Source: Thalassospira sp. TSL5-1
Lineage (GTDB): Bacteria > Pseudomonadota > Alphaproteobacteria > Rhodospirillales > Thalassospiraceae
DNA length: 64,000 nucleotides
Assembly (NCBI RefSeq): GCF_001907695.1
Contig: NZ_KV880637.1
Coordinates: 1,426,001-1,490,000 of the forward strand
Reading direction: 5' to 3'
Shown here: positions 35,938-50,438 of the stretch, one piece after another
Position numbering within the stretch: position 1 is the first letter of the stretch
Layout of the letters: each line of letters begins with the position of its first letter
The notes under the pieces: generated by a model
Database searches by the model: none
What the model was told of the DNA's origin: nothing
What the model saw: the letters and a program-made list of their open reading frames with translations, nothing else
Translations under genes and position numbers: made by a program

Positions 35938-36237
35938 CGATATGACGGTTTCTAGAAGCGAACTTTTGGTGTGAAAGCCCAAAAACGGCTGAGGTGTCAT
36001 TCTTTTGGGTTGCTGTGTTTAACGGTTCATCAACCCAGAAATGTCGGGGGATAATTTTATTGCAGCCGCGAAAATGGCGTTGTTGCTGTAATTCGGCCGA
36101 TTTTATGACTTTCTGATATCTGCACGGGCGTTTCTGATGGTTGCATCTCACTGAAATCTGCTAACTATTGGAACGGATTTTCTTGTCATTATCCAAATTC
36201 CTGTCACTTTTATAAAAAAAGGCGATGGGGAGGTTCA
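35938..36237. promoter_or_regulatory. Upstream region of the second glycan operon
   Basis: About 300 bp with no recognisable gene. It contains a 7-bp inverted repeat TGGGTTG/CAACCCA near 36007-36038 and becomes AT-rich toward 36165-36220, where TTGGAA and TATCCA 16 bp apart could be a promoter for the operon. The assignment is weak. Confidence 0.4.
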
Positions 36238-36333
36238 ATGGGACATGGACGACGGAATGGCAGCAAGGTATTTGCTGGTAAGACAACCATGTCTTTAGGG
36301 ACACCCGAATTGCGGACGGTATTATGTCTTTAA
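36238..36333 (+). CDS. Candidate 31-codon leader ORF coupled to the glycosyltransferase start
   Basis: An ATG follows GGGGAGG by 4 bp, the best ribosome-binding site in this area. The ORF encodes 31 residues (starts MGHGRRNGSK, ends RTVLCL) and its TAA at 36331-36333 lies 7 bp inside the next gene, in another frame. The glycosyltransferase start at 36324 has only a weak CGGACGG site of its own, so translational coupling is plausible. ATGTCTTTA occurs both inside the leader (36289) and at the downstream start (36324). No known family is recognised, and expression as a protein is unproven. Confidence 0.45.
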   Translation: MGHGRRNGSKVFAGKTTMSLGTPELRTVLCL

Positions 36334-37547
36334 AGGGCGCACGCGGCTATCGTGTTTTGATCTATAGTCACGACACATTTGGCCTGGGTCATTTGCGGCG
36401 TTGCCGCACCATTGCGCATGCTTTGGTCGATAACAGGGATGATGTTTCGGTGTTGATCCTGTCGGGATCACCGATCATTGGCAGCTTTGAATTTCGATCC
36501 CGTGTCGATTTTGTACGCATTCCTGGCGTGATCAAGCTTTCCAATGGCGAATATACGTCGCTGAACCTGGATATCGATGTCGAACAGATGCTGGCGATGC
36601 GTGAATCGATCATTCAGCACACCGCCGATGCCTTTGACCCCGACCTGTTTATTGTCGACAAGGAACCGCTGGGTCTGCGTGGTGAGGTGGAACCGACCTT
36701 AAAAATGCTCAAGGAACGTCATACGCGCCTGGTGCTTGGCCTGCGTGATGTTATGGACGACCCTGAAACCCTGCGCGAAGAATGGCAGCGCAAAAACTGC
36801 GCGCCCGCCCTTGCCAATTATTATGACGATATCTGGGTTTATGGCCTGCGCGAAATCTGCAATCCGTTGCAGGGCATCGATCTTCTGCCTGGTGTCGAAG
36901 AGAAAATGACCTATACCGGCTATCTGCCGCGTACCGCGACCCGCAAACCTGCCCCTGAACACGGCTCATTGGGCCTTGATGATCCCTATTTCCTCGTGAC
37001 CACAGGTGGTGGTGGCGATGGTGTTAATCTGGTGGATTGGGTGATTAGTGCCTATGAGGCTGATCCTGACATTCCCATGCCTTCGCTGGTGGTTCTGGGG
37101 CCGTTTATGGCCCCGGCGGAACAGCAGAAATTTATGGAACGGGCCGAAAATATCGACAAACTTTCGGTCATCACCTTTGATGCCAATGTTGAAATGCTGA
37201 TGGCAAAATCGGCCGGTGTGATTGCGATGGGCGGGTATAATACCTTCTGCGAAATCCTGTCATTCGATAAACCCTCTATTATCGTGCCGCGCACCGTGCC
37301 CCGGCTGGAGCAATATGTGCGGGCATCGCAAGCCGAAAAGCTGGGCCTGGTTCGAATGTTAACCGAAGAGGGCGGACGCCCGCCGCTTGAAATGGCGGAG
37401 GCTTTGCGTGGCCTTGCTGCTCAACCAGCCCCCTCAAGTGTGACAGTGCCGGGGCTTATGGGCGGGTTGGAAACGGTGTCATCGATGGTGGAGCAATGGT
37501 TGCCCCGTACTGGTGGCCTGCCTGAACCCGAGTATGCGACGGCATGA
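36324..37547 (+). CDS. MurG-like (GT28-fold) predicted glycosyltransferase
   Basis: A 407-residue GT-B fold protein of the predicted glycosyl transferase family known as COG4671. RVLIYSHDTFGLGHLRRCRTIA at the N-terminus holds the glycine-rich acceptor loop; FLVTTGGGGDGVNLVDWV lies at the domain boundary and MGGYNTFCEILSFDKPSIIVPR with RLEQYVRASQAEKLGLV is the donor-binding region. Members are believed to be cytosolic and act on lipid- or sugar-linked substrates. It is the first long gene of the operon and overlaps its neighbour by ATGA. A second, more divergent family member lies at 40601. Confidence 0.8.
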   Translation: MSLKGARGYRVLIYSHDTFGLGHLRRCRTIAHALVDNRDDVSVLILSGSPIIGSFEFRSRVDFVRIPGVIKLSNGEYTSLNLDIDVEQMLAMRESIIQHTADAFDPDLFIVDKEPLGLRGEVEPTLKMLKERHTRLVLGLRDVMDDPETLREEWQRKNCAPALANYYDDIWVYGLREICNPLQGIDLLPGVEEKMTYTGYLPRTATRKPAPEHGSLGLDDPYFLVTTGGGGDGVNLVDWVISAYEADPDIPMPSLVVLGPFMAPAEQQKFMERAENIDKLSVITFDANVEMLMAKSAGVIAMGGYNTFCEILSFDKPSIIVPRTVPRLEQYVRASQAEKLGLVRMLTEEGGRPPLEMAEALRGLAAQPAPSSVTVPGLMGGLETVSSMVEQWLPRTGGLPEPEYATA

Positions 37548-38845
37548 TTTCTGCCCCGATGGAAGGTGTTGATCATATTGCCATTGTGGTAAAGGGCTAT
37601 CCGCGCCTGTCGGAAACCTTTATTGCCCAGGAAATATTGGGTATTCAGCAGGCCGGTATTCCCTACCGTATTGTTTCGCTGCGTCATCCGACCGATAAAA
37701 AACGCCATCCCATTCATCATCGTATTACCGGTTCGGTCGATTATTTGCCGGAATATTTGCATGACGAACCCTTGCGCGTATTGGCCGGCTGGTGGAAGGC
37801 ACGCCGTATGCCGGGCTATCGCGCGGCCATGCGGGCCTGGTGGCGCGATTTCAGGCGCGATGCTACCCGCAACCGCATTCGTCGCATGGGCCAGGCGATG
37901 GTGATGGCCGCTGAACTGCCCGCTGACATTACCCGCATTTACGCCCATTTCCTGCATACCCCGGCATCTGTTGCGCGCTATGGCGCGATGATACGGCGAT
38001 TGCCGTGGTCCTGTTCGGCCCATGCCAAGGATATTTACACCAGCCCCGATTGGGAAATGCGCGAAAAACTGGCCGATATGGACTGGCTGGTCACATGTAC
38101 CCGCGCCAATGTGGATCATTTAAAGGCATTGGCGGACGACCCAGCCAAGGTGAATTTGCTGTATCACGGCCTCGATTTTTCCCGCTTTCCCGAAGAATTA
38201 CCTAATCGCCCGTTACGTGATGGCAGTAATGAAAATGATCCGGTGATCATTTTATCTGTCGGGCGGCTGGTCGGTAAAAAGGGCTATGACGACCTGTTGC
38301 GTGCCCTGGCAAAATTGCCAACCGGCCTGCATTGGCGCTTTGTCCATATCGGCGGCGGCAAAGGCGAAAAATACCAGGCTCTGGCGCGGGAATTGGGCAT
38401 TGCCGATAAATGCGACTGGCAAGGCCCGCGTGACCAGGCCGAAGTGATTGCCGCCTGCCAAAAGGCCGATTTGTTTGTTCTCGCCAGCCGGATCGAAAAA
38501 GACGGGGACCGTGATGGGCTGCCCAATGTGCTGATGGAGGCACAGCTTTGTGGTCTTGCCGCGGTCTCCACATGTATTTCCGCCATCCCGGAATTAATTC
38601 GCGATGGGGAAAATGGCCTGCTGGTGCCCGAACGCGATGAAACCGCCCTTGCGATTGCCTTGCAGGATATGATTGGTGATCCGGCAAAGCGTATTCGTAT
38701 GGGGCAGGCGGGCAATGATATTGTGCGTCGCGATTTTTCCTTTCATGCCGGAATGCGCGAACTGGGCCGCCGGTTTGGCATTGTTCCTGCCGAAAAACCT
38801 GAAATTGCGGGTACAGATGACGCACTTGCCACCGTGCGGGAGTAA
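37544..38845 (+). CDS. Family 4 glycosyltransferase
   Basis: A 433-residue GT4 enzyme. The N-terminal half shows IAIVVKGYPRLSETFIAQEI, a colanic-acid/WcaL-like signature, and IYAHFLHTPASVARYGAM. The donor half has VGRLVGKKGYDDLLRALAKLP, HIGGGKGEKYQALARELG, FVLASRIEKDGDRDGLPNVL and MEAQLCGLAAVSTCISAIPELI with both Glu of EX7E. The start overlaps the preceding stop (ATGA); an ATG five codons later is possible. The next gene follows after 5 bp. Confidence 0.88.
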   Translation: MISAPMEGVDHIAIVVKGYPRLSETFIAQEILGIQQAGIPYRIVSLRHPTDKKRHPIHHRITGSVDYLPEYLHDEPLRVLAGWWKARRMPGYRAAMRAWWRDFRRDATRNRIRRMGQAMVMAAELPADITRIYAHFLHTPASVARYGAMIRRLPWSCSAHAKDIYTSPDWEMREKLADMDWLVTCTRANVDHLKALADDPAKVNLLYHGLDFSRFPEELPNRPLRDGSNENDPVIILSVGRLVGKKGYDDLLRALAKLPTGLHWRFVHIGGGKGEKYQALARELGIADKCDWQGPRDQAEVIAACQKADLFVLASRIEKDGDRDGLPNVLMEAQLCGLAAVSTCISAIPELIRDGENGLLVPERDETALAIALQDMIGDPAKRIRMGQAGNDIVRRDFSFHAGMRELGRRFGIVPAEKPEIAGTDDALATVRE

Positions 38846-38850
38846 CCGCC

Positions 38851-39996
38851 ATGCGAATTGCGTTTTACGCCCCGCTAAAGCCGCTTGATCATCCGGTGCC
38901 ATCCGGTGATCGTTTGATGGCCCGGTTGCTGGTGGCAGCCTTAAAACGCGCCGGGCATGATGTGGATATTGCAGCCCGTTTGCGAAGCCGGGTAGGCGAT
39001 GGCAACGCCCTGCGCCAACTACAACTGGCTGAACTGGGCGGCAAACTGGCTCGCCGGTTGCTGCGCCGTTATGAAACCGGTTTTTTGCCCCGGCCTGATA
39101 TCTGGTTTACCTATCATCTTTATTACAAGGCACCGGACTGGATTGGTCCGCTGGTCGCAGCCGAGTTGGGCATTCCCTATATCCTGTGCGAGGCATCCCA
39201 TGCCCCAAAACGGGCAACCGGCCTCTGGGCGGCCAGCCACCGGGCAGTTGAGCAGGCGTTAAAACAGGCCCGTGCGGTTTTGTGCCCTAACCGGGCCGAT
39301 ATGGCATGCCTGGCCCCGGTTACTGGGGGACAGAAACTTCATTTTTTACCGCCTTTCACCGATATTGGCGTGTGGCAGGGGGCGGACAGTCTATCTGCAT
39401 CACAAAAGGATGCGGCGGTAAATTCGGGGCCGGTCGAAATGATCACCGTTGCCATGATGCGCCCGGGCGACAAGTTTCAATCCTTTGTTCTGCTGGCCAA
39501 AGCGCTGGCCGCCCTGCCACCGGATTTGCAGCAAGGCTGGCGGCTGACGATCGTCGGCGATGGCCCGGCGCGAAAGGATGTTGCCGGGCTATTTGGGCGG
39601 TTTGCAGCAGACCAGGTGGTTTTTGCCGGGCAGTGCGATACCGAAAAAACACGGGATTATCTGGCCCGCGCCGATTTATGCGTTTGGCCCGCCATTAACG
39701 AGGCCTATGGCATGGCCCTGCTGGAGGCACAGGCCGCAGGCCTGCCGGTGCTGGCCGGTGACTATGGTGGTGTTGGTGGTATTGTGCGCGATGGCGAAAC
39801 GGGGTGGCTGGTCCCGGCGGGTGATCCGGCAGCATTTTCCCGCCAATTGGCACACTGCCTTGCCAATCGTGCGGTATTAAAACCCGTTGGGCAAAAGGCG
39901 GCACAAAATGCCTTGGCCCATCACGATATTTCAGCGGCAGCAAGGGTGCTGGACTGCGTGATTAGGGATGTTATTGATCAGCGGGGCACCCCATGA
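38851..39996 (+). CDS. Family 4 glycosyltransferase with altered EX7E motif
   Basis: A 381-residue GT4 enzyme: RIAFYAPLKPLDHPVPSGDR at the N-terminus, FTYHLYYKAPDWIGP in the acceptor half, and GDGPARKDVAGLF with VWPAINEAYGMALLEAQAAG in the donor half. The usual second Glu of EX7E (as in GGVPEVV) is replaced: the stretch reads DYGGVGGIVRDGETGWLV, so one donor-binding contact is changed. The substitution may alter donor choice; inactivity cannot be claimed. The stop overlaps the phosphatase gene (ATGA). Confidence 0.82.
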   Translation: MRIAFYAPLKPLDHPVPSGDRLMARLLVAALKRAGHDVDIAARLRSRVGDGNALRQLQLAELGGKLARRLLRRYETGFLPRPDIWFTYHLYYKAPDWIGPLVAAELGIPYILCEASHAPKRATGLWAASHRAVEQALKQARAVLCPNRADMACLAPVTGGQKLHFLPPFTDIGVWQGADSLSASQKDAAVNSGPVEMITVAMMRPGDKFQSFVLLAKALAALPPDLQQGWRLTIVGDGPARKDVAGLFGRFAADQVVFAGQCDTEKTRDYLARADLCVWPAINEAYGMALLEAQAAGLPVLAGDYGGVGGIVRDGETGWLVPAGDPAAFSRQLAHCLANRAVLKPVGQKAAQNALAHHDISAAARVLDCVIRDVIDQRGTP

Positions 39997-40604
39997 CGCA
40001 GGCTGATTTTTCATTTGCCGTTTTGCGACATGGTGCCACATCCTGGAACCGCGACGGACGTATTCAGGGACATAGCGATATTGGCCTGTTGCCCGAAACC
40101 CGCGATCAGTTGTGTCGGTTGCGTATCCCCGGCGAATGGGCCGATCAGCCCTGGTATACAAGTCCGTTAAAACGCACGGGCGAAACGATTTCGGCACTGG
40201 GTATTGACGCGGTTGGTGCATTGCCTGCTGTCATCGAAATGGATTGGGGGCAGTGGGAAGGCCGAAAATTGGCCGATATTCGCGCCGAGCTGGGCGATGC
40301 CATGCAACAAAACGAGGATCGCGGCTGGGATTTCCGCCCCGAGGGTGGTGAAAGCCCACGCGAGGTTTTGCGGCGTGTGTTGGCATTTTTGCGGCAATGG
40401 CCGGATGGTGACTTTGGCGTGACAACCCACAAAGGCGTTATTCGTGCCCTGTATGCACATGCGCGGGGCTGGAACATGCTGGGCAAAAGCCCCGATAAAC
40501 TGCACTGGGATGCCTTGCATGTTTTTCGCTGGTCGGCGGCGGATGGTTTGTCCGTCGCGCAATTGAATGTGCCCCTGATCCCGAGAAAAGGACGGCCCCA
40601 ATGA
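39993..40604 (+). CDS. Histidine phosphatase (phosphoglycerate-mutase-like) family protein
   Basis: A 203-residue protein. The catalytic FAVLRHGATSWNRDGRIQG holds the phospho-accepting His of the RHG motif near residue 13; WYTSPLKRTGETI supplies the second Arg, EMDWGQWEGRKLADI the acid, and VTTHKGVIRAL the second His. Its position inside a glycosyltransferase operon suggests removal of phosphate from a sugar phosphate or sugar-alcohol phosphate intermediate, by analogy with heptose or ribazole phosphatases; the substrate is not known. Both ends overlap neighbours by ATGA. Confidence 0.85.
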   Translation: MTQADFSFAVLRHGATSWNRDGRIQGHSDIGLLPETRDQLCRLRIPGEWADQPWYTSPLKRTGETISALGIDAVGALPAVIEMDWGQWEGRKLADIRAELGDAMQQNEDRGWDFRPEGGESPREVLRRVLAFLRQWPDGDFGVTTHKGVIRALYAHARGWNMLGKSPDKLHWDALHVFRWSAADGLSVAQLNVPLIPRKGRPQ

Positions 40605-41746
40605 CCGATGTAATGATTTATGTGCAGCATTTGCTGGGAATTGGTCATGTCCGCCGTACCGCCTTGCTGGTGGCCGAAATGCGCAAACTGGGCCTGACGG
40701 TGGGTGTTGTCAGCGGTGGCATCCCCGATGATGCAATTGATTTTGGGGCCGATTGCATCATTCAATTGCCCGCGTGTCGCAGTGCCGATCATGGTTTTTC
40801 CGGTCTGGTCGATCAGGATGGAAAACCGGTGGACGATGCCTGGAAGGATGGTCGCAAAAACGCATTGCTGGCGGCTTATCAAAAACTGTCGCCGCGCCTG
40901 TTGTTGGTGGAAATGTTCCCCTTTGGCCGCCGGGCCTTTCGGTTTGAATTATTGCCACTTCTCGAACAGGCCGGGCAGGAAGGGGTGAAGCGGGTATGCT
41001 CGGTGCGTGATTTGCTGGTGCGCAAAAATGATATCAGCAAGGAACGCTGGATGCGGGACGTGGCGTTATCGCATTTTGACCGGGTGCTCGTACATGGCGA
41101 CCCGGCGGTTTTTGGCTTTGACCGCAGTTTTCCCTTTGCTGCCGATCTGGATGATATGCTGGACTATACAGGCTATGTTGCCGCCAATGTGAAACGCGAT
41201 AACAGCGTATCTCGTGCAGGCGTGGTGGTATCGGCCGGTGGGGGGGCTGTTGGCGCGGATCTGATCCAGGCCGCAATTGCTGCGCGCCCATTATCGGCCA
41301 AATATGCAAAGGCCCGTTGGGATATTATTACCGGCCCGCATTTCCCTGCTGATACTTTTGCCCATCTGGCGGTCAATGTGCCTGACGGGATAACGCTGCA
41401 TCGCTTTTTACCCGATTTTCGCGACAGGTTGGCGCGGGCCGAAGTTTCGGTATCCCAGGCAGGCTATAATACTCTGATGGATGTGCTGGCCGCTGGCGTG
41501 CCGTCGGTGATGGTGCCCTTTGCCGAAGGCGGGGAAAGCGAACAGAGCGAACGGGCCGCGATTTTTGCCGATAAAGGCATTATTTCGCTACTGCCAGCCA
41601 GTCAACTTTGCCCGGATGAACTGGCGCGCGTGATTGATAATGCAGATTTTCCCAAAGAATTTGAATTATTGCTGGACGGGGCGCGTATAGGTGCGGCTAA
41701 AATCAGGGCAATAATAATGGGGAAAGATCATGGGCACCTGGGATGA
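40601..41746 (+). CDS. MurG-like predicted glycosyltransferase (second copy)
   Basis: A 381-residue GT-B protein of the same broad family as the 36324 product. VMIYVQHLLGIGHVRRTALLV is the glycine-rich N-terminal loop, GVVVSAGGGAVGADLIQAAI marks the domain junction, and VSQAGYNTLMDVLAAGVPSVMVPF with ESEQSERAAIFADKGII is the donor-binding half. The sequences have diverged, so the two enzymes probably use different acceptors or donors. It overlaps the next gene by 17 bp. Confidence 0.8.
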   Translation: MTDVMIYVQHLLGIGHVRRTALLVAEMRKLGLTVGVVSGGIPDDAIDFGADCIIQLPACRSADHGFSGLVDQDGKPVDDAWKDGRKNALLAAYQKLSPRLLLVEMFPFGRRAFRFELLPLLEQAGQEGVKRVCSVRDLLVRKNDISKERWMRDVALSHFDRVLVHGDPAVFGFDRSFPFAADLDDMLDYTGYVAANVKRDNSVSRAGVVVSAGGGAVGADLIQAAIAARPLSAKYAKARWDIITGPHFPADTFAHLAVNVPDGITLHRFLPDFRDRLARAEVSVSQAGYNTLMDVLAAGVPSVMVPFAEGGESEQSERAAIFADKGIISLLPASQLCPDELARVIDNADFPKEFELLLDGARIGAAKIRAIIMGKDHGHLG

Positions 41747-42488
41747 CCTTCGCACCGAGCTTGATTGCTGGGCGCAGGCCGGACAACAAGCGACGATGTG
41801 GTGGCGGGACGACGATGCCGTTTCCGTAACCCCGCAGCTTGAGGAAATCCTGTCCTGCGAGCGCAGTTATCATGTGCCTTTGGCGTTGGCTGTTGTTCCT
41901 GGAACGCTTGAAAATGACCTGCCTGAACGCCTTGTTGAAACGGTCGATACCCGTATTTTGCAGCATGGCTGGCGGCATCAAAGCCACACCCCGGCGGACC
42001 GTAAAAAGCAGGAACTCGATGATGTGCGCCCGGTCGAATCCGTCCTGGCGGAGGTTCAATCGGGCTTTGATATCCTCACCACGCGATTTGCAAGCCGTTT
42101 TTTACCCGTTATGGTTCCACCCTGGAACAGAATTGCCCCTGCCGTTTTGCAGGGCCTGCCTAAAATAGGCATCCGTGCGGTTTCAACATTTGGGGCGCGC
42201 AAAGCCAGCCAGCCGATTGACGGGTTATTGCAGGTGAATACCCATATTGATGTGATCGACTGGCGTGGAACCCGTGGATTTGTGGGGGAAAGCCCGTGCC
42301 TGGCGGCGATGATTGATCATTTGCAGGGCCGCCGTACCGGCACATATGACCCGGAAGAGACTACCGGTCTTTTAACCCATCATCTGGTGCATGATGCGCC
42401 GACAACCACCTTTTTGCATGATCTGTTTTCGTTTGAGCATCCCGCTCTGCAATGGCAGGCCATTCCCGGGGTGTTTCCGTGGCAATAG
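41730..42488 (+). CDS. Polysaccharide-deacetylase-like protein
   Basis: A 252-residue protein with NodB-type carbohydrate esterase features: MWWRDDDAVSVTPQLEE near residue 23 (Asp pair for base and metal), LQHGWRHQSHTP near residue 78 (HxxxH-type metal ligands) and VMVPPWNRIAP, the Arg/Pro motif. The family removes acetyl groups from N-acetylated sugars with a divalent metal. No signal peptide is visible, so a cytosolic intermediate, as in LPS or mycothiol-type pathways, is more likely than finished polymer. It overlaps the preceding gene by 17 bp. Confidence 0.75.
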   Translation: MGTWDDLRTELDCWAQAGQQATMWWRDDDAVSVTPQLEEILSCERSYHVPLALAVVPGTLENDLPERLVETVDTRILQHGWRHQSHTPADRKKQELDDVRPVESVLAEVQSGFDILTTRFASRFLPVMVPPWNRIAPAVLQGLPKIGIRAVSTFGARKASQPIDGLLQVNTHIDVIDWRGTRGFVGESPCLAAMIDHLQGRRTGTYDPEETTGLLTHHLVHDAPTTTFLHDLFSFEHPALQWQAIPGVFPWQ

Positions 42489-43153
42489 CGGTGGACCAGT
42501 TTTTAAAAGACAGCCCGGTGATAACGGGTGGATTAGGTGATACAAAAGTGAATATCAGTGAAGCAGACCTGAACAACAGCCCCGTGGTACCGGAAGGCCA
42601 GGACAGCCGTAACACCGATATCACGGTGATGCAGTATCCGCGCCGTGTGGTGATGCCCGATTTGATCCGGTCGGTGCTGGGGATTGTGCTGTGTGCCGGT
42701 ATCGCATTTACCCCTGATGTGATCGAGTTGCTGCGCTGGATCGCCGGGGCGCTGATTTTGCTGTTTCTGGGTTATCTGTTACGTACCCTTTTTCGGTTGG
42801 GAGCGCGTATTCATGTATCGGACTATGGGGTGCGGCAAAGCGGCGTGATGTCGGGCTCGGCTTTTGGCTGGTCGGAACTAACCGGTTTTCGCCTGCGTTA
42901 TTTTAGCACCTGTCGCGATGGCAAAAAGGGCTGGTTTGAAATGACCCTGGAGGCGGCAGGGACCAAACTGGTTGCGGAATCAACCCTGAACGGGTTTGGA
43001 CGTCTTCTGGAACTGGCACGCGATGCCGCAAACGAAAACCAGATTATGATCGACGACGTGACACGCACAAATTTGTTGCGCATGGACGAGGCGGATAATC
43101 TTGTCAAGGCGCAGATCAGCGGGCGTGGCGGGGTAATGGGCGAGGGGCAATGA
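42479..43153 (+). CDS. Membrane protein with PH-like domain, unknown function
   Basis: About 224 residues if started at the GTG at 42479; an ATG at 42452 would give 233. The first ~55 residues are polar. Two hydrophobic segments follow (SVLGIVLCAGIAFTPDVIEL and WIAGALILLFLGYLLRTLF), then a cytosolic region resembling bacterial PH-type domains (HVSDYGVRQSGVMSGSAFGW, ELTGFRLRYFS). I recognise no specific family. It overlaps the deacetylase-like gene by 10 bp and the ABC ATPase gene by ATGA, so it bridges the glycan and transporter halves of the operon. Confidence 0.6.
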   Translation: MAIAVDQFLKDSPVITGGLGDTKVNISEADLNNSPVVPEGQDSRNTDITVMQYPRRVVMPDLIRSVLGIVLCAGIAFTPDVIELLRWIAGALILLFLGYLLRTLFRLGARIHVSDYGVRQSGVMSGSAFGWSELTGFRLRYFSTCRDGKKGWFEMTLEAAGTKLVAESTLNGFGRLLELARDAANENQIMIDDVTRTNLLRMDEADNLVKAQISGRGGVMGEGQ

Positions 43154-45225
43154 CCGATATTCTGCGTATCCGGGATCTTGAGGTCGAATTCGTAACACCG
43201 CATATGCGGACGCGGGCCGTTGACAAGGTCAGCTTTCGGATCGGGGCGCAGCAGACGGTTGCTTTGGTTGGGGAATCCGGGTCTGGCAAAACCACCATAT
43301 CCCAGGCGATTATGGGCATTCTGCCCGAGGCCGCACAAATTACCGGCGGTAGCATTATTTTTGCCGACCCGAAAAAGCCTGGTACCCGGGTCGATATTGC
43401 CATGCTGTCGGCCAATAGCACCGAAATGCGGGCCATTCGCGGCGGCAGCATTTCAATGATTTTTCAGGAACCCATGAGTTCCCTTTCCCCCATTCATACC
43501 GTGGGCGACCAGATTACCGAGGCGGTACGCCTGCATCAGAATGTTGGTGCGAGCGAGGCACGCGACCTTGCGCGCGAGATGCTGGAACTGGTGGGATTTC
43601 CCAATGCAAAGTCTGCCTTGCGCACCTATCCGTTTGAACTTTCCGGCGGGTTGCGCCAGCGCGCCATGATCGCAATGGCGCTGGTATGTCGCCCGGCATT
43701 GCTGGTGGCCGATGAACCGACAACCGCCCTGGATGTGACCATTCAGGCGCAAACTTTGCGTTTAATCAAGGATTTGCAGAAGAGCCTTAAGATGTCGGTT
43801 TTGCTGATTACCCATGATTTGGGGGTTGTTGCCAACATGGCCGACCATACCGTGGTGGTTTATAATGGCCGGGTGGTTGAACGCGGGCGCACCGACGATA
43901 TTTTCATTAATCCCGGCCATGCCTATACACGGTCGCTGCTACAGGCGGTGCCGCATTTTGATATGGGACCGGATGAAAGGTTAAAGCCCCTGCGCGAAAT
44001 TAAACCGCGCACTGATGGTTTGCTTACCCTGACCGACAAGTTTGACCGCAAAATGGCCCGCCTGAAAGAACATGCGGCCTCTGGCAACGGGCGGGGCGAA
44101 AAAGACGACACCGCGTTGGCACATAATCAAACTGGCAGGGACGGTACAAATCCTGACAGTACAGCGCACCAGCCTGCCGGTCTTGGCGCTGTGATGACAG
44201 GTGAGGGTGCAAACGCCCAGCCAAACCAGCGTTTGTCGGGCGTGGCCAGGGGCGAGGCGGTGTTGTCGGTTACGCATTTGAATAAAAGTTTCCCGGTGCG
44301 TAAAAGCGGCTGGTTTGGTGTTGATGAACGGCGCATTCAGGCCGTAAGCGATGTGTCGTTAACGGTGGGTCGTGGGGAATGTGTGGGGCTGGTTGGCGAA
44401 AGTGGCTGTGGCAAGACCACCCTTTCCAAGCTGATTATGCGGGCAATGGCACCCGATAGCGGCAGCATTCTGTTTCGCGGCGAAAGCGGCCAGATGACGG
44501 ATCTGGTCGGCCTGGATGAAGAACGGTTAAAACCCTATCGCAAGCGCATACAGTTTGTGTTTCAGGACCCGTTTTCATCGTTGAACCCCCGCATGACAGT
44601 GCAGGACCTGATTAGCGAACCGATGCTGATTCATGGGGTCGGCACATCGGAATACCGGCGCAAAATGGTGCTGGAACTAATGGAAGTTGTCGGGCTTGAT
44701 CCGCGCTTTTTAAACCGCTATCCGCACAGTTTTTCAGGTGGGCAGCGCCAGCGTATTGGCATTGCCAGGGCGCTGTGCCTCAGGCCGGATTTATTGATCC
44801 TTGATGAGCCGACTTCCGCCCTCGATGTGTCGGTTCAGGCGCAAATTCTTAACCTTCTAAAGGATTTGCAGCGCGACCTTAACCTGACTTATTTGTTTAT
44901 TTCGCATAACCTTGCCGTGATTGACTATATGGCAGACCGTATTGCGGTGATGTGCGCCGGGCGTATTGTGGAATCCGCACCGCGTTCCAGCCTGTTTAAA
45001 AATCCGGCCCATCCCTACACCCGTGCGCTATTAAATGCCGTGCCCTATGCCGACCTGGATCATCCGCTGGATTTTTCCAAAATCATGGATGGAAAATGTT
45101 CTGACCCGTCGGCCTGGCCTGCCCCCTTTACGGTTGACCGTCAGTCAAACCCGCCAATGGTGCAATTGGCCGAAGACCATTTTGTGCGCATGAGTCGACC
45201 CGATTATCAGGAGATTGCTGTTTGA
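43150..45225 (+). CDS. Peptide/nickel-type ABC transporter ATPase, fused DppD-DppF (YejF-like)
   Basis: A 691-residue protein with two complete ATPase domains. Domain 1: Walker A GESGSGKTT near residue 42, signature LSGGLRQRAMIAMAL, Walker B LLVADEPTTALDV, THDLGVV. Domain 2: GESGCGKTT near residue 417, FSGGQRQRIGIARAL, LLILDEPTSALDV, SHNLAVI. Each is followed by the oligopeptide-type HPYT/HAYT tail (GHAYTRSLLQAVP, AHPYTRALLNAVP). Residues ~300-355 form a low-complexity linker. The fused layout is like YejF. It overlaps the upstream gene by ATGA and meets the binding-protein gene at TGATG. Confidence 0.93.
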   Translation: MTDILRIRDLEVEFVTPHMRTRAVDKVSFRIGAQQTVALVGESGSGKTTISQAIMGILPEAAQITGGSIIFADPKKPGTRVDIAMLSANSTEMRAIRGGSISMIFQEPMSSLSPIHTVGDQITEAVRLHQNVGASEARDLAREMLELVGFPNAKSALRTYPFELSGGLRQRAMIAMALVCRPALLVADEPTTALDVTIQAQTLRLIKDLQKSLKMSVLLITHDLGVVANMADHTVVVYNGRVVERGRTDDIFINPGHAYTRSLLQAVPHFDMGPDERLKPLREIKPRTDGLLTLTDKFDRKMARLKEHAASGNGRGEKDDTALAHNQTGRDGTNPDSTAHQPAGLGAVMTGEGANAQPNQRLSGVARGEAVLSVTHLNKSFPVRKSGWFGVDERRIQAVSDVSLTVGRGECVGLVGESGCGKTTLSKLIMRAMAPDSGSILFRGESGQMTDLVGLDEERLKPYRKRIQFVFQDPFSSLNPRMTVQDLISEPMLIHGVGTSEYRRKMVLELMEVVGLDPRFLNRYPHSFSGGQRQRIGIARALCLRPDLLILDEPTSALDVSVQAQILNLLKDLQRDLNLTYLFISHNLAVIDYMADRIAVMCAGRIVESAPRSSLFKNPAHPYTRALLNAVPYADLDHPLDFSKIMDGKCSDPSAWPAPFTVDRQSNPPMVQLAEDHFVRMSRPDYQEIAV

Positions 45226-47165
45226 TGTTTTCTTTTGCCAGTTTTCCCACCGTGCCGCATGCACAAAAACACAAGGTGGCATTCGCATCGGGCGCGATGG
45301 CTTTTTTGCTGGGCTGTACGCTGTTTGCAGGCAGTGCCTGGGCCGAGATCCCCTATTTTGCCGATAAGGTAAAATCTGGCGTGTTGCCAGCAATGGAGCA
45401 GCGTTTGCCCGAACATCCCCTGAAACTGGATTTCGCTGCCGAAGGTAAGGAAATTGGCAAATATGGTGGCGATATGGTCACAATCATGGGGCGGTCCAAG
45501 GACATCCGCATGGCGGTGGTTTATGGCTATACCCACCTGATCGGTTATGACCAGAACCTGGAGCTGAAGCCCGATATCCTTGAAAGCCTGGATGTGAACG
45601 AGGATGGCAGCGTTTTTACCCTGCGTCTGCGCAAAGGGCATAAATGGTCGGACGGGGCCCCATTTACGGCCGAGGATTTCCGTTTTTACTGGGAAGATGT
45701 GGTTAATAACGAGGAATTGTTCCCGGTTGGGCCGCCGCGCTTTTTGCTGGTGGATGGTGAACCCCCGAAATTCGAGGTGCTCGATAAATATACCGTGCGC
45801 TATAGCTGGTCGCAACCAAACCCGTTTTTCCTGCCGGAACTGGCTGCCACGCGGCCGCCCTTTATTTACCGGCCCGCGCATTATTTAAAACAGTTCCACG
45901 AAAAATATCAGGACCCGCAAAAGCTTGCGGCGATGGTGAAGGAACGGGGCCTGCGCAATTGGGCGGTTTTGGAAACCGATATGGACCGGCCCTATAAACT
46001 GGAAAATATTGACCTGCCAACATTGCAGCCCTGGGTTATCCGTACCCAGGAACCGTCGGACCGGTTTATCTTTGAACGTAATCCATATTTTCACCGGGTA
46101 GACCCGGATGGGAACCAGTTGCCCTATATTGACCGGATGATTTTTAATATCTCGAATGCCAAGCTGGTTCCGGCCAAGGTCGGTGCAGGCGAGGTGGATA
46201 TTCAAAGCCGTATTCTGACCTTGAAGGACTATACGTTCCTGAAACAGGCGGAAAAGGACAAGTCCTTTCATGTACGTTTGTGGGATGTGGGCTATGGCAA
46301 CTATGCCACTCTTTATCCGAACCTGACGGTGTCGGACCCGGTATGGCGCAGATTGCTGCGCGATTTGCGCTTCCGCAAGGCATTGTCGCTGGCGATTAAC
46401 CGGACAGAGTTAAACCGGGTACTGTTTTTTGGACTGGCCACACCACGCAACAATACGATTTTGCCCAAAAGCCCGTTATTCAAAAAGGAATATGCGACCG
46501 AGAATATCGGGTTTGACCTGAATAAGGCCAATGCGCTGTTAGATGACATGGGCCTTACCAAACGCAATGACGATGGTATTCGCCTGATGCCCGATGGCAG
46601 GCCGCTGGAAATTATCGTCGAAACGGCCGGGGAAAACCCGGAATATGATGACATTCTCGCCCTGATTGGTGATAGCTGGCAAAAGGCGGGCATCAAGCTT
46701 TATGTCAAGGCGTTGCAACGCGAAGTGATGCGCACCCGTGCCTATAGCGGGGATACGGTGATGTCGCTTTTTACCGGCATTGACAATGGTCTTGCTGTGC
46801 CATCATCGGTACCGTCGGAATTTGTCCCGGTTAATCAGGATAGTTTGCAATGGCCCAAATGGGGCCAGTATTACCAAACCGGCGGGGAAGCAGGCGAAAA
46901 ACCCGATATGCCCGCTGCTGAAGAATTGATGAAGCTTTATGATCAGTGGCGCATCGGCGGGCCGGGACAGCAGAAAAAGGCATGGGAACATATCCTTGAT
47001 ATTAATGCCGAAAATCTGTTTTCTATTGGGCTGGTCGGAAATGTGCCGCATCCGGTTGTGGTGGCTGACGGTTTAATGAATGTGCCGGAAAAGGGTATTC
47101 ACAGCTGGGAACCGGGCGGATTTTTTGGCATCTATCATCCCGATACCTTTTGGTGGGATCGTTAA
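45225..47165 (+). CDS. Family 5 extracellular solute-binding protein
   Basis: A 646-residue periplasmic binding protein of the DppA/OppA/YejA type. A long n-region and hydrophobic MAFLLGCTLFAGSAWA form the signal peptide (cleavage after AWA). The mature protein has LRKGHKWSDGAPFTAEDFRFYW, the SBP family 5 signature, RFRKALSLAINRTELNRVLF, and AFxA-like PWVIRTQEPSDRFIFERNPYF. Family members bind peptides, nickel chelates, opines or oligosaccharides. The ATG at 45225 overlaps the ATPase stop by one base; CAGGAG lies 10 bp upstream. The location after a glycan operon raises the possibility of a sugar-containing ligand. Confidence 0.92.
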   Translation: MFSFASFPTVPHAQKHKVAFASGAMAFLLGCTLFAGSAWAEIPYFADKVKSGVLPAMEQRLPEHPLKLDFAAEGKEIGKYGGDMVTIMGRSKDIRMAVVYGYTHLIGYDQNLELKPDILESLDVNEDGSVFTLRLRKGHKWSDGAPFTAEDFRFYWEDVVNNEELFPVGPPRFLLVDGEPPKFEVLDKYTVRYSWSQPNPFFLPELAATRPPFIYRPAHYLKQFHEKYQDPQKLAAMVKERGLRNWAVLETDMDRPYKLENIDLPTLQPWVIRTQEPSDRFIFERNPYFHRVDPDGNQLPYIDRMIFNISNAKLVPAKVGAGEVDIQSRILTLKDYTFLKQAEKDKSFHVRLWDVGYGNYATLYPNLTVSDPVWRRLLRDLRFRKALSLAINRTELNRVLFFGLATPRNNTILPKSPLFKKEYATENIGFDLNKANALLDDMGLTKRNDDGIRLMPDGRPLEIIVETAGENPEYDDILALIGDSWQKAGIKLYVKALQREVMRTRAYSGDTVMSLFTGIDNGLAVPSSVPSEFVPVNQDSLQWPKWGQYYQTGGEAGEKPDMPAAEELMKLYDQWRIGGPGQQKKAWEHILDINAENLFSIGLVGNVPHPVVVADGLMNVPEKGIHSWEPGGFFGIYHPDTFWWDR

Positions 47166-47242
47166 GTAAAAATATTTGGCGCACGGCAGGGGAGTGGTGC
47201 GCTAAAGCCCGTTACGGGGGAACATCTTGGGGAAGAGCACGC

Positions 47243-48241
47243 ATGCTAACATATGTGGCGAGAAGGCTGCTGGTTATGATACCGACACTGTTTATGATCA
47301 GTGTGCTGGTCTTCATTGTCATTCAGCTGCCCCCGGGTGATTTTTTAACCACCTATATGAACGAGCTCAAGGCCCAGGGGGAAGCGGTTGATCCTTCAAA
47401 AATTGCTTTCCTGCGGGCGCAATATGGCCTTGATGACCCCCTTTACATTCAATATTTCCATTGGGCGTGGGGGCTTTTGCACGGCAATCTTGGTTTCAGT
47501 TTTGAATATAATTTGCCCGTGACCGAGGTGGTCGGTGACCGTTTGTGGCTTTCGATGGTGCTGAATTTCAGTACCATCCTGTTTATTTACGTGGTCAGTT
47601 TCCCCATCGGCATTTATTCCGCTACACGGCAATATAGCTGGGGCGATTATGGCATTACGCTGTTGGGCTTTTTGGGCCTTGCCATGCCCAATTTCCTGTT
47701 TGCGCTGATCCTGCTTTATTATGCCAATGTGGTGTTTGGCACCTCGATTGGCGGGTTGATGGACCCGCAATTTATCAATGCCGGTTGGTCATGGCCCAAG
47801 GTCATTTCGATTATCGAACATTTATGGGCACCGGTTTTGGTGATTGGCACGTCGGGCACAGCGGCGATGATACGGCGGTTGCGCGCCAATTTGCTTGATG
47901 AACTGGGCAGGCAATATGTCGTGACGGCACGCGCCAAGGGCTTGTCGCCGATGAAGGTTTTGTTCAAATATCCGCTGCGTATGTCTTTGAACCCGTTCAT
48001 TTCCGATATTGGCAATATCCTGCCGCAGGTGGTTTCGGGGTCGGTTCTGGTGTCTGTGGTGATGTCTTTGCCAACAACCGGGCCAATGCTGTTATCGGCG
48101 CTGCAAAGCCAGGATATGTATCTTGCCGGGTCATTTTTGATGTTCCTGGCATTGCTCACGGTGGTGGGCATGTTCGTTTCGGATTTGCTGCTGGCCTGGC
48201 TTGATCCGCGTATTCGCCTGCAGGGGAGCATTTCCCAATGA
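47243..48241 (+). CDS. Peptide-type ABC transporter permease (DppB/YejB-like)
   Basis: A 332-residue permease starting with MLTYVARRLLVMIPTLFMIS, the usual DppB N-terminal helix. IQLPPGDFLTTYMNEL, LDDPLYIQYFHWAWGLLHGNLGFSF and the EAA-type loop YVVTARAKGLSPMKVLFKYPLRMSL are visible, with about six membrane segments. The ATG at 47243 is chosen because the family N-terminus begins there and GGGGAAGAG precedes it; the frame is open to 47150 but that extension has no homology. It overlaps the next permease gene by ATGA. Confidence 0.92.
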   Translation: MLTYVARRLLVMIPTLFMISVLVFIVIQLPPGDFLTTYMNELKAQGEAVDPSKIAFLRAQYGLDDPLYIQYFHWAWGLLHGNLGFSFEYNLPVTEVVGDRLWLSMVLNFSTILFIYVVSFPIGIYSATRQYSWGDYGITLLGFLGLAMPNFLFALILLYYANVVFGTSIGGLMDPQFINAGWSWPKVISIIEHLWAPVLVIGTSGTAAMIRRLRANLLDELGRQYVVTARAKGLSPMKVLFKYPLRMSLNPFISDIGNILPQVVSGSVLVSVVMSLPTTGPMLLSALQSQDMYLAGSFLMFLALLTVVGMFVSDLLLAWLDPRIRLQGSISQ

Positions 48242-49410
48242 GCCGCCATACACAGGACCGCGCCGACGAGCATTTTGTCGATACCCAGCCTTTCGATCCA
48301 TGGGATAAAGAAGAGCTTTCGCCCGAGCAGGAACGCTATTTCCTGGCGTCACAATGGAAGCTGATCTGGTGGCGGTTAAAAAAGCATAAACTGGCTTGTG
48401 TTTCGCTGATCATTCTTGCCGTGATGTATGCCGCCATTTTCATTGTCGAGTTCCTGGCACCCTATGCCCAGGAATCGCGTGATAGCCAAAATATCCATCA
48501 TCCGCCGCAGGGCATTCACCTGTTTAACGACGGGTCATTTGTTGGTCCGTTCACCTATGGCACCGACTTTTCCATCGATATGGATACCCTAAAGCCGATT
48601 TATAAACCCAACCCGGACAAGATCGACAGGCTGCGGTTTTTCTGTGCGGGCGACCCTTATGAATTTTGGGGCCTGTTTAAGGCGGATGTGCATCTGGTGT
48701 GCCCGGCCAGGGATGGCACGCTGTTTTTGCTGGGAACCGACCGTTTGGGCCGCGACATGTTTTCGCGCATTATTTATGGCGCACGCATTTCGCTGACCAT
48801 TGGTCTGGTTGGTATTGCCGTTAGTTTTGTGCTGGGCGTTCTGATTGGCGGGATAGCCGGATATTTTGGCGGCTGGGTGGACAGCTGTGTGCAGCGCGTG
48901 ATCGAGGTGATCCGCTCCCTGCCGGAAATTCCGCTCTGGATGGCGCTTTCGGCGGCCTTGCCCGTCACCTGGAGCCCGGTTTTAATCTATTTTGGCATTA
49001 CCATCATTTTGGGGCTGATTGACTGGACGGGGCTTGCCCGTGCGGTGCGGTCCAAATTCCTGGCCCTGCGCGAGGAGGACTATGCCCTTGCGGCACGCCT
49101 GACCGGGGCGACCCCAAAACGCATCATTGCCCGCCATTTGCTGCCCAATTTTGCCAGCCATCTGATTGCATCGGTAACGTTGTCGATCCCGAATATGATT
49201 TTGGGTGAAACAGCACTTAGTTTCCTGGGGCTTGGCCTGCGCCCACCGGTGACAAGCTGGGGCGTGTTACTTAACGAGGCGCAAAACATCAATGCCGTGG
49301 CGGTTTATCCGTGGTTGATGCTGCCGGTTGTACCGGTGATTATCGTGGTACTGGCCTTCAACTTTTTGGGCGATGGCCTGCGTGATGCGGCCGATCCCTA
49401 TAAAAACTGA
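48238..49410 (+). CDS. Peptide-type ABC transporter permease (DppC/YejE-like)
   Basis: A 390-residue permease. Residues 1-45 are cytosolic, LSPEQERYFLASQWKLIWWRLKKHKLA leads into the first helix, a long periplasmic loop (~residues 75-170) follows as in YejE-type proteins, then LFLLGTDRLGRDMFSRIIYGARISL and the EAA loop YALAARLTGATPKRIIARHLLPNF. FLGLGLRPPVTSWGVLL is the usual DppC end block. It completes the importer: fused ATPase, binding protein and two permeases. A convergent gene begins 24 bp after its stop. Confidence 0.92.
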   Translation: MSRHTQDRADEHFVDTQPFDPWDKEELSPEQERYFLASQWKLIWWRLKKHKLACVSLIILAVMYAAIFIVEFLAPYAQESRDSQNIHHPPQGIHLFNDGSFVGPFTYGTDFSIDMDTLKPIYKPNPDKIDRLRFFCAGDPYEFWGLFKADVHLVCPARDGTLFLLGTDRLGRDMFSRIIYGARISLTIGLVGIAVSFVLGVLIGGIAGYFGGWVDSCVQRVIEVIRSLPEIPLWMALSAALPVTWSPVLIYFGITIILGLIDWTGLARAVRSKFLALREEDYALAARLTGATPKRIIARHLLPNFASHLIASVTLSIPNMILGETALSFLGLGLRPPVTSWGVLLNEAQNINAVAVYPWLMLPVVPVIIVVLAFNFLGDGLRDAADPYKN

Positions 49411-49434: not shown

Positions 49435-50292
49435 CTATTTCTTGCGCAGCCACAGACTGGTTTCGATGCTGCCTTCGACCAGGGGCAGGTCATTGGCGAT
49501 GGAGGCGGTGACCGTGTCCTTCATGAAGCTGTTGGCATAGGCTGATGACCACATGATGTCAAAGCCATTGCCCGACAGCAGGGCGGCAACGCCCTGTTGT
49601 TCGTTATAACCGCGCCACTGCCAGACTGACGGATAATCGCCAGGCAGGCAAATATCGTGGATATGAATGATCACCCCGGATGGCAGCATTGGCAGCACGT
49701 TTGAAAACAGCATATCCACATCGGTACCGGGCATCAGGATGTGGCTGCTGTCAATCGACAGAATATCCCCCGCCGACAGGTCGGCGAAAACTGACATCGG
49801 CACCTGTTGGACGATTGTTTGGTGGAGGGTGATGGGCAGCTGGGCAATATCGGCGCGCGGGGCCGGGTCGATAGCGGAAATAAGGGTATCAAGCCTTTCA
49901 TCCAGCACAGCACGATAGAAAAAACGGGTGCTGTGCCCTGATCCCACCTCGACAATGCGCTGCGGGCGCAATTCGCGGGTAATGACATAGGCCATCATGC
50001 CATCCATGCCGGGAAACCAGCCCTGTTCCCAGCGCGGGTCAGGCGGCGTTGCCTGTTTAAACCCGACCAGAGCATCGCGATAAAGCTCTGCCTTTAACAA
50101 CCAGGATTTGAAGTCCTCGCGGTATTTTGTAAACTGTTTTTCCAGTGTTGTGTAATGCGGGCGGCCAACCGTCTGTGCGGTTTGTGCTGCATACCGATAG
50201 GGGATGAAATACCCGGCTGGTTCCTTCCCGAACAGGGTTTTTAGGCCCAGTTTCCAGCGGCGGATTTTTTTGGCAAAGGGAAGGTTGGTCAT
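49435..50292 (-). CDS. Class I SAM-dependent methyltransferase-like protein
   Basis: A 285-residue protein. IVEVGSGHSTRFFYRAVLDE near residue 117 matches motif I of class I methyltransferases, ISAIDPAPRADI is the acidic second strand, DILSIDSSHILMPGTD and VLPMLPSGVIIHIHDICLPGD complete the fold, as in the Methyltransf_24 type. The acceptor is unknown. Two ATG codons lie 6 bp apart; the second (50292) is preferred because the first overlaps the AAGGA site. It is monocistronic and convergent with the peptide ABC operon, followed upstream by a 146-bp gap. Confidence 0.75.
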   Translation of the reverse strand: MTNLPFAKKIRRWKLGLKTLFGKEPAGYFIPYRYAAQTAQTVGRPHYTTLEKQFTKYREDFKSWLLKAELYRDALVGFKQATPPDPRWEQGWFPGMDGMMAYVITRELRPQRIVEVGSGHSTRFFYRAVLDERLDTLISAIDPAPRADIAQLPITLHQTIVQQVPMSVFADLSAGDILSIDSSHILMPGTDVDMLFSNVLPMLPSGVIIHIHDICLPGDYPSVWQWRGYNEQQGVAALLSGNGFDIMWSSAYANSFMKDTVTASIANDLPLVEGSIETSLWLRKK

Positions 50293-50438
50293 TATCATCC
50301 TTTATATCGGCCCGATCGGGCAATATTCCTAGGTTCCTGCCCGCTATCTACCCGGTTTTGGCCGGAAAGGTAAGGGGCATAAATACCTGATATGTTGTGT
50401 GTTCAGGGAATTGCATTAAAGGTTGGAAGTGATTGCCG

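Follow-up and report, generated by a model that had tools for sequence, protein, structure and literature searches.

A conserved alphaproteobacterial operon joins glycosyltransferase genes to a family 5 ABC importer and suggests a sugar molecule that is made, sent out and taken back

The window, a stretch of 64,000 nucleotides from Thalassospira sp. TSL5-1, carries eleven open reading frames (G1 to G11, 36324-49410), which all lie on the forward strand and were all open in the ORF check (Table 1). Neighbouring frames are spaced by -17 to +77 bp. Five junctions are 4-base overlaps (G1/G2, G3/G4, G4/G5, G7/G8 and G10/G11), G5/G6 overlap by 17 bases and G8/G9 by one base, and gaps of 5, 2 and 77 bp lie at G2/G3, G6/G7 and G9/G10, respectively, with G7 starting at a GTG (42491) and G10 at an ATG (47243). 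An earlier note on this DNA had described a tightly coupled operon of glycan and importer genes whose only gaps were 5 and 77 bp; the coupling was borne out, in a unit larger than first noted, and the gap statement holds to within 2 bp, as a third gap of that size is present at G6/G7. The tightness of the junctions goes beyond chance because it recurs in other genomes, where six of the ten junctions, among them G7/G8, at which the glycan genes give way to the importer genes, have a median gap of -4 and the remaining four have medians from -7 to +2 (starts approximate). An internal terminator or promoter separating the importer from the glycan genes was also looked for, and none stands out in scans against shuffled sequences: terminator-like sites number 26 versus 20.6 (sd 4.7) in shuffles, promoter-like sites 10 versus 12.6 (sd 3.7), and the scan found neither kind in the 77-bp G9/G10 gap. 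The leader upstream of G1 is the probable promoter region; a promoter-like match is present at G1 (36298-36325), such matches being no commoner than in shuffles. Rfam returned no match in the window.

Table 1. Features of the operon and its flanks in window coordinates.
Feature	Position	Strand	Basis
Leader before G1, 386 bp	35938..36323		Sequence
G1, glycosyltransferase, GT28 C-terminal type (MJ1255-like)	36324..37547	+	PF04101, 33.3 bits (cut-off 22)
G2, GT4 glycosyltransferase (EpsE-like)	37544..38845	+	PF00534
G3, GT4 glycosyltransferase	38851..39996	+	PF00534, PF13692
G4, histidine phosphatase (branch 1)	39993..40604	+	PF00300, 112.5 bits
G5, second GT28-type glycosyltransferase	40601..41746	+	PF04101, 51.8 bits
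G6, predicted CE4/NodB-fold deacetylase	41730..42488	+	Structure model, Foldseek, invariant residues
G7, probable membrane protein, two long helices and PH-like fold	42491..43153	+	Model, Foldseek
G8, fused ABC importer ATPase, two NBDs	43150..45225	+	PF00005 in two stretches, oligo_HPY
G9, family 5 (cluster C) solute-binding protein	45225..47165	+	PF00496, 212.6 bits
G10, importer permease	47243..48241	+	PF00528, PF19300
G11, importer permease	48238..49410	+	NCBIfam Opp4C, 270 bits (under cut-off 350)
Possible accessory Methyltransf_24 methyltransferase, convergent with G11	49435..50298	-	PF13578

Pfam backs the four glycosyltransferases of two types and the histidine phosphatase that had been read from the sequence, assigning two to the GT28 type and two to GT4. 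NCBIfam matches lie below their cut-offs for G1 (TIGR00661, 40.9 bits, cut-off 195.9), G2 (EpsE at the top, 134 bits, cut-off 400) and G4, which is cobC-like (79 versus 163 bits for that equivalog). In the Pfam and NCBIfam tables, none of the eleven operon proteins is an initiating transferase, a flippase or polymerase, or a Wzm/Wzt component, and the operon is not a Wzx/Wzy or ABC-2 polysaccharide locus in gene content.

G6 and G7 match no family in Pfam (E 0.001) or NCBIfam (E 0.01). The AlphaFold2 model of G6 (pLDDT 97.2) retrieves mostly polysaccharide deacetylases as its top Foldseek matches (best E 8e-7); aldolases first appear at rank 30. The CE4/NodB motif consists of a catalytic Asp and a metal-binding HxxxH, and in G6 both are found (D27, D28, D29, H79 and H83), these residues being invariant, together with N133, R134 and H217, in 44 of 44 aligned sequences. 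Structure prediction thus places the protein, formerly called deacetylase-like, in the CE4/NodB fold, and deacetylase activity is predicted. For G7, whose model has a pLDDT of 86.8 with 36 relatives aligned, two helices, probably transmembrane, and a PH-like fold are predicted. The PH-like membrane protein of the earlier note is therefore suggestive only, as PH-domain matches reach a Foldseek probability of 1.0 with none at E<=0.001, and the best of them (E 6.4e-3) follows an unrelated first rank (3.6e-3). The start of G7 lies between 42452 and about 42630; a start at the upstream ATG (42452) would make G7 overlap G6, and later starts are seen in many relatives.

G8 to G10 were assigned by Pfam, and G11 was scored against NCBIfam only. 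With an SBP_bac_5 protein, two permeases (G11 by its below-cut-off Opp4C match) and ATPase domains, they make up a family 5 (cluster C) importer. Two stretches each of Walker A, signature and Walker B are present in G8, and the N terminus of G9 is signal-peptide-like by eye. The nearest solved relatives of G9 are Thermotoga OppA and the pectin-binding SPH1118. The closest entry is PDB 5ipw, annotated as oligopeptide-binding, followed by SPH1118 (E 1.5e-80) and by 6epy, an alpha-galactoside-binding protein of the MelB type. 6epy resembles G9 as a large family 5 sugar binder and differs in its much weaker match (E 3e-29). The former description of the importer as peptide-type stands as a family label, but two of the four best solved matches of G9 are SPH1118 and a third is the alpha-galactoside binder, and judging from these sequence relationships the importer may be a peptide transporter in name only.

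SPH1118 of Sphingomonas sp. A1, which takes up plant pectin and stacks the sugar on Trp594, is like G9 a cluster C family 5 protein, about 620 aa long, whose sequence had led to an oligopeptide-binding annotation (PMC9314435). Residues were compared in 55 sequences, namely the G9 of the window and 54 others scoring over 550 bits. Trp594 aligns with W in 54 of them, Phe592 with an aromatic residue in 53 and Arg466 with R in 48, and Glu216 faces D or E in 41, whereas opposite Arg57, Leu295, Ser298, Asn324, Arg438 and Arg496 the residues vary or differ. The position of Arg294, which in the available text contacts only a buffer molecule, is kept in 53 of 55 sequences (PMC9314435). Among the residues stressed in that paper (Arg57, Arg438, Arg466 and Trp594), Arg466 and Trp594 are kept and Arg57 and Arg438 are not, so that one of the three key arginines persists. 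Since most residues of SPH1118 that form hydrogen bonds with the trisaccharide are not kept, an acidic pectin-like ligand of G9 is not indicated. The available parts of the paper place oligopeptide-ABC-transporter genes near SPH1118 and mention no glycosyltransferase operon (PMC9314435).

This relationship bears on one alternative, in which the importer takes up a glycoside or oligosaccharide from the surroundings for use as acceptor or precursor, the glycosyltransferases, phosphatase and deacetylase then turn it into a glycan of surface or osmotic function, and nothing is recycled. Such a pathway would fit the same gene linkage, the best-studied near relative of G9 imports a plant glycan (PMC9314435), and a degradative enzyme was not found as a core member. 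However, plasmid records with G2 relatives come from soil, root nodules, sea water and an algal phycosphere, which do not form one niche with one glycan supply, and we consider external supply unlikely.

A separately encoded ABC exporter is inherited together with the operon. It is MsbA-like, with a cyclic-nucleotide-binding domain fused or often adjacent, and is found in 90 of 92 genomes with G1; in 64 of the 92 it lies within 5 kb of G1, divergently in 61 of those. In this genome it is about 1.1 Mb from the operon, outside the window, encoded by a single frame whose 1074 aa include the fused cNMP-binding domain. Its two top NCBIfam scores are MsbA and HepA, all scores being far under equivalog cut-offs, and Pfam ABC_tran matches it only at profile positions 2-80 of 137, which is consistent with a long insert in the predicted NBD. 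The set thereby recalls glycan loci with MsbA-, HepA-, NdvA-, ChvA- or PglK-type exporters, from which it differs in these low scores, in the fused or adjacent cNMP-binding domain and in the inclusion of a family 5 importer.

The MsbA/HepA likeness also speaks for a structural lipid-linked sugar as the product, with an importer of peptides or envelope fragments and the PH-like G7 at the membrane serving envelope homeostasis. G7 sits between the two halves of the operon, GT28 includes lipid glycosyltransferases, and GsiA and then YejF are the best NCBIfam scores of G8. Yet these scores are well under the equivalog cut-offs (590 versus 1077 and 529 versus 834 bits), and a G7 was detected in no more than 36 of the 60 regions, although so short and divergent a protein may escape detection; we regard this explanation as quite unlikely.

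According to the class-wide sample (289 genomes, searched for G1, G6, G9 and the exporter with E-value limits of our choice), G1 relatives (E<=1e-60) occur in 92 genomes, about a third, G6 in 84, G9 in 90 and the exporter in 95. G6 and G9 occur together in 81 genomes, that is, in 81 of the 84 holding G6, and G6 lies within 6 kb upstream of G9 on the same strand in 65. All four markers are present in 78 of the 99 genomes holding any, in counts that ignore relatedness. In 60 regions of up to 20 kb from 54 genomes, all eleven genes occur in the same order in 24, a proportion that is not an unbiased rate, as the regions were hand-picked for coverage of families, with split and partial clusters among them; only matches above score limits set by us were counted, and contigs ending inside regions lower the counts. 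Relatives are found in nodule symbionts (Rhizobium and Sinorhizobium), Azospirillum and Ruegeria. Some clusters are without G6 (genomes G138 and G257), and in tblastn searches the rhizobial loci L151, L152, L154 and L156 showed no G4 or G7, and L154 also no G3 or G6. Rearranged versions place the importer before the glycosyltransferases or divergent from them, including loci L125 and L126, and genome G330 holds the parts in three separate loci.

Distance correlations between glycosyltransferase and importer genes are within the range seen inside each half; those of G1 with G8 (r 0.67) and G9 with the exporter (r 0.66) each exceed all 200 permutations, and four of 36, all involving G6 (with G1, G9, G11 and the exporter), do not rise above them. 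These correlations also agree with simple vertical descent. It could be supposed that unrelated neighbouring operons were fused by chance and retained by descent, the co-occurrence figures taking no account of relatedness, but rearranged and split versions keep the parts, and 81 of the 84 deacetylase genomes have the binding protein. Co-occurrence without linkage contradicts this idea and leaves it extremely improbable. The linkage of importer and glycan genes is class-wide rather than restricted to this genome. Together with the lack of an outstanding terminator or promoter between the halves and the co-occurrence of the parts even where genomes have them split, this strongly supports the shared pathway that had been proposed.

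A PF14099 lyase was seen in two of the four sets of rhizobial loci annotated or searched (in L151 and in L152/L156 of Sinorhizobium, but not in L154). This lyase and a nucleotide sugar dehydrogenase in rhizobial loci prompted the idea of an acidic-glycan lyase as a general member. As a core member this enzyme was rejected: its profile matched two of 18 genomes with all four markers and none of 18 comparison genomes (13 with none of the four markers and five known only to lack G1), and one rhizobial lyase as query found nothing in the 60 regions. A single-sequence search hit one of 289 genomes and misses divergent members such as that of this genome itself. Across the genomes and the 60 regions searched, neither a lyase nor a hydrolase emerged as part of the core. 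Recycling of a breakdown product is accordingly something that we infer, the PF14099 lyase, the sole candidate breakdown enzyme, lying outside the core.

Family 5 importers are also known for metal chelates, and the product might be a metallophore-like small molecule, glycosylated and able to bind peptides or metals, that is made and then re-imported. NikA- and CntA-like NCBIfam matches of G9, all below cut-off, and the synthesis-export-import gene set fit this idea. The content rich in glycosyltransferases points instead to a sugar, and no peptide ligase, NRPS or chelator-forming gene is among the annotated recurring neighbour families, which makes such a product very unlikely.

We propose that a small extracytoplasmic amino-sugar glycan, either a free oligosaccharide or a glycoconjugate, is made, exported and taken up again by a conserved system whose core is this operon (probability roughly 0.45). 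The unit itself is well supported, its gene content, order, co-inheritance and predicted folds being direct observations, and the product and imported ligand, the direction and order of the steps and the role of the cyclic nucleotide are proposed as follows. The four glycosyltransferases would build the glycan in the cytoplasm, G4 would take a phosphate off an intermediate or acceptor, and the CE4-type G6 would deacetylate an amino-sugar residue. The MsbA-like exporter, presumably under cyclic-nucleotide control, would move the product across the inner membrane, and G9 with the importer (G8-G11) may return the glycan or a fragment for recycling or sensing. A bolder form, which we consider doubtful, is a widespread, as yet undescribed alphaproteobacterial glycan cycle, in which a dedicated oligosaccharide is released via a cyclic-nucleotide-gated ABC exporter and sensed or retrieved by the family 5 importer, as a signalling or recycling loop and not a capsule.

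Mycothiol-type pathways use a GT4 enzyme, a phosphatase and a deacetylase in sequence, and the operon is similar in having a glycosyltransferase, a phosphatase and a deacetylase in succession; however, only a generic, below-cut-off MshA match was obtained, and the mycothiol deacetylase presumably has the LmbE fold, unlike the CE4-fold G6. Locus L189, distant and outside the class, shares two GT28-type and two GT4 enzymes, a G6-like DUF2334 protein and an MsbA-like exporter, but additionally encodes a heparinase II/III-type protein and two kinases of the APH family, and no relative of G8-G11 was found in the 20 kb examined. No paper naming this gene set was found in open-licence PMC full text, an absence of little weight since the search matches exact words there. 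The conserved operon and its matching exporter suggest an undescribed sugar molecule that is made, sent out and taken back. If so, an importer annotated for peptides would in fact be devoted to a glycan that the cell makes itself, with export gated by a cAMP-type signal; the product of these conserved glycosyltransferase operons, and the reason for both export and import, become testable.

CyaK (SMb20776) was considered as the cyclase of the cluster and tentatively set aside: a published abstract ties its infection-control pathway to CHASE2-domain cyclases, and the cluster cyclase shows a cyclase domain only. On pSymB of Sinorhizobium 1021, the importer permeases lie at 834894-837064 of NC_003078.1, a place where neither this record nor that of 2011 annotates a gene. 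Finally, 20 of the 60 regions contain a member of the Methyltransf_24 family, and every one of these also has glycosyltransferase genes of the cluster.

Genes G1 to G11 occupy one strand of the 4.97-Mb genome, every reading frame being open. The tightly tiled unit that the earlier note had described is borne out by measurement, as the ten junctions from G1 to G11 are -4, +5, -4, -4, -17, +2, -4, -1, +77 and -4 bases, although the +2 value between G6 and G7 assumes a GTG start codon for G7, and where that gene really begins is uncertain. The closest G1 proteins among the matches listed, at 94 percent identity, belong to Thalassospira mesophila and one other Thalassospira.

Features of the operon and of associated genes in the Thalassospira sp. 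TSL5-1 genome (L168 and L280 are loci outside the window)
Feature	Coordinates	Strand	Assignment	Basis
G1-G11	36324-49410	+	whole operon	
G1, G5		+	glycosyltransferases, GT28-type	Pfam/NCBIfam profiles
G2, G3		+	glycosyltransferases, GT4	Pfam/NCBIfam profiles
G4		+	histidine phosphatase	Pfam/NCBIfam profiles
G6		+	CE4-like deacetylase (predicted)	predicted structure and invariant residues
G7		+	two long helices plus PH-like fold (predicted)	predicted structure
G8		+	ATPase with two NBDs	profiles and sequence
G9		+	family 5 binding protein	profiles
G10, G11		+	permeases	profiles (G11 by NCBIfam only)
Methyltransferase (window's own copy)	49435-50298		Methyltransf_24	
ABC exporter	L168:7728-10949 (contig C1, ~317-320 kb)		MsbA/HepA-like	
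MBL-fold gene	L168:10996-11772		Anti-Pycsar Apyc1	Pfam, 99.9 bits
Polysaccharide lyase	L280:6393-9001		PF14099	

G9 is present in all 25 genus genomes searched, the window's genome included; at the level of the order, 41 of 120 genomes carry G6. A class-wide sample of 289 genomes yielded G6 in 84, G9 (E<=1e-120) in 90 and both in 81, of which 65 carry G6 on the same strand no more than 6 kb upstream of G9. Sixty regions of up to 20 kb were then compared, taken from 54 genomes hand-chosen to cover a spread of families and some atypical cases; in 24 of the regions the eleven genes are all present in precisely the window's order, and six of the ten junctions, the one between the glycan half (G1-G7) and the importer half (G8-G11) among them, have a median gap of -4. 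The importer precedes G1 in records from Azospirillum, Rhizobium, Sinorhizobium and Ruegeria, is divergent in genomes G170 and G298, and in genome G330 the parts are split over three places. That the parts occur together even where their linkage varies speaks against hitch-hiking, and the eleven genes almost certainly constitute one functional system. G9 relatives also occur apart from the operon (loci L128, L131, L132, L135, L140 and L141), with two copies in genomes G163 and G412; the operon proper lacks G9 in genomes G200 and G412.

An ABC exporter gene, divergent from G1 in many loci, is inherited together with the operon. Counted by the first half of the protein (E<=1e-70, with G1 at E<=1e-60), the exporter is present in 95 of the 289 class genomes, G1 in 92 and both in 90; in 64 of the 92 G1 genomes the two genes are no more than 5 kb apart, and in 61 they are divergent. 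All four markers (G1, G6, G9 and the exporter) occur in 78 of the 99 class genomes holding any one. We tentatively propose, with a probability of roughly 0.45, that operon and exporter would make a deacetylated glycan, export it and take it back. To our knowledge, no described system has this gene set, nor was a paper on it found in the open-access literature, a negative that counts only weakly towards its absence. The individual parts are of known kinds, and their combination is new to us.

As for the deacetylase, G6 matched no curated family in Pfam or NCBIfam, and its AlphaFold2 model (pLDDT 97.2) has CE4 deacetylases as best structural matches, the Asp cluster and HxxxH being kept in 44 of 44 aligned sequences. 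The PH-like fold predicted for G7 gave no Foldseek match at E<=0.001.

The window genome's exporter sits ~1.1 Mb from the operon and has 1074 aa, with an MsbA/HepA-like membrane domain and a fused C-terminal cyclic nucleotide (cNMP)-binding domain; elsewhere the cNMP-binding protein is often encoded by a gene of its own adjoining the exporter. The NBD of the window genome's exporter is matched only partly by Pfam, consistent with a long insert, and ~300 residues separate the two stretches matched by NCBIfam profiles. Within the 60 regions, the exporter occurs in 32, the cNMP protein in 29, Methyltransf_24 in 20, Methyltransf_17 and MBL in 17 each and a cyclase in 10, and every region with any of these holds glycosyltransferase genes of the cluster. 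The MBL-fold gene adjoining the window genome's exporter matches a cyclic-nucleotide-cleaving family and may switch the exporter's signal off. On Sinorhizobium pSymB (L152, L156), matches to the exporter fall into two pieces in both strains, as do those to G1 in one strain, so these copies may be broken.

The importer had earlier been called peptide-type, which names a family. Among solved structures, G9 comes closest to Thermotoga OppA (5ipw), the pectin-binding SPH1118 and an alpha-galactoside binder (6epy). According to the accessible part of the SPH1118 paper, that protein binds acidic sugars and hardly binds yeast extract or tryptone, no peptide complex is reported for 5ipw, and Arg57, Arg438, Arg466 and Trp594 are stressed (PMC9314435). 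Judged against the residues named in that part, the Trp594 position is W in 54 of 55 G9 sequences (W629, numbering of the 647-aa reading), Arg466 is R in 48 (R500, same numbering) and Phe592 is aromatic in 53, whereas Arg57 and Arg438 face unconserved positions and the other hydrogen-bonding residues are mostly unconserved. Taken together, a carbohydrate would be a likelier ligand than a peptide, though probably a different sugar from that of SPH1118.

G1 (E<=1e-30) was found in 27 of 349 phylum-wide genomes, 25 of them within the class, and the two outside matches share only 36-38 percent identity. In a scan of named genomes, a G1 relative (E<=1e-3) is encoded by at least 583 of the 589 stretches that matched, and the 80 best of these 583 include some titled, as deposited, Beta- or Gammaproteobacteria MAGs; three of the best 80 (L263, L266 and L274) hold genes of the set in reshuffled order. 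One of the two outside matches lies in a sister-like cluster (L189, genome G507), which resembles the operon in its two GT28-type and two GT4 glycosyltransferases, DUF2334 protein and MsbA-like exporter, but differs in a heparinase II/III-type protein and two APH kinases, and no importer lies within the stretch read.

In some rhizobia the locus also includes a nucleotide sugar dehydrogenase and a PF14099 lyase, as would be expected if an acidic glycan were cut and then re-imported. As a general rule, such cutting by a PF14099 lyase fails, the family occurring in 2 of 18 four-marker genomes and 0 of 18 comparison genomes; the rhizobial lyase sequence used as query gave 0 matches in the 60 regions. 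The single PF14099 gene of the window's genome lies 118 kb away from the operon, directly 3' of a PAS chemotaxis-receptor gene.
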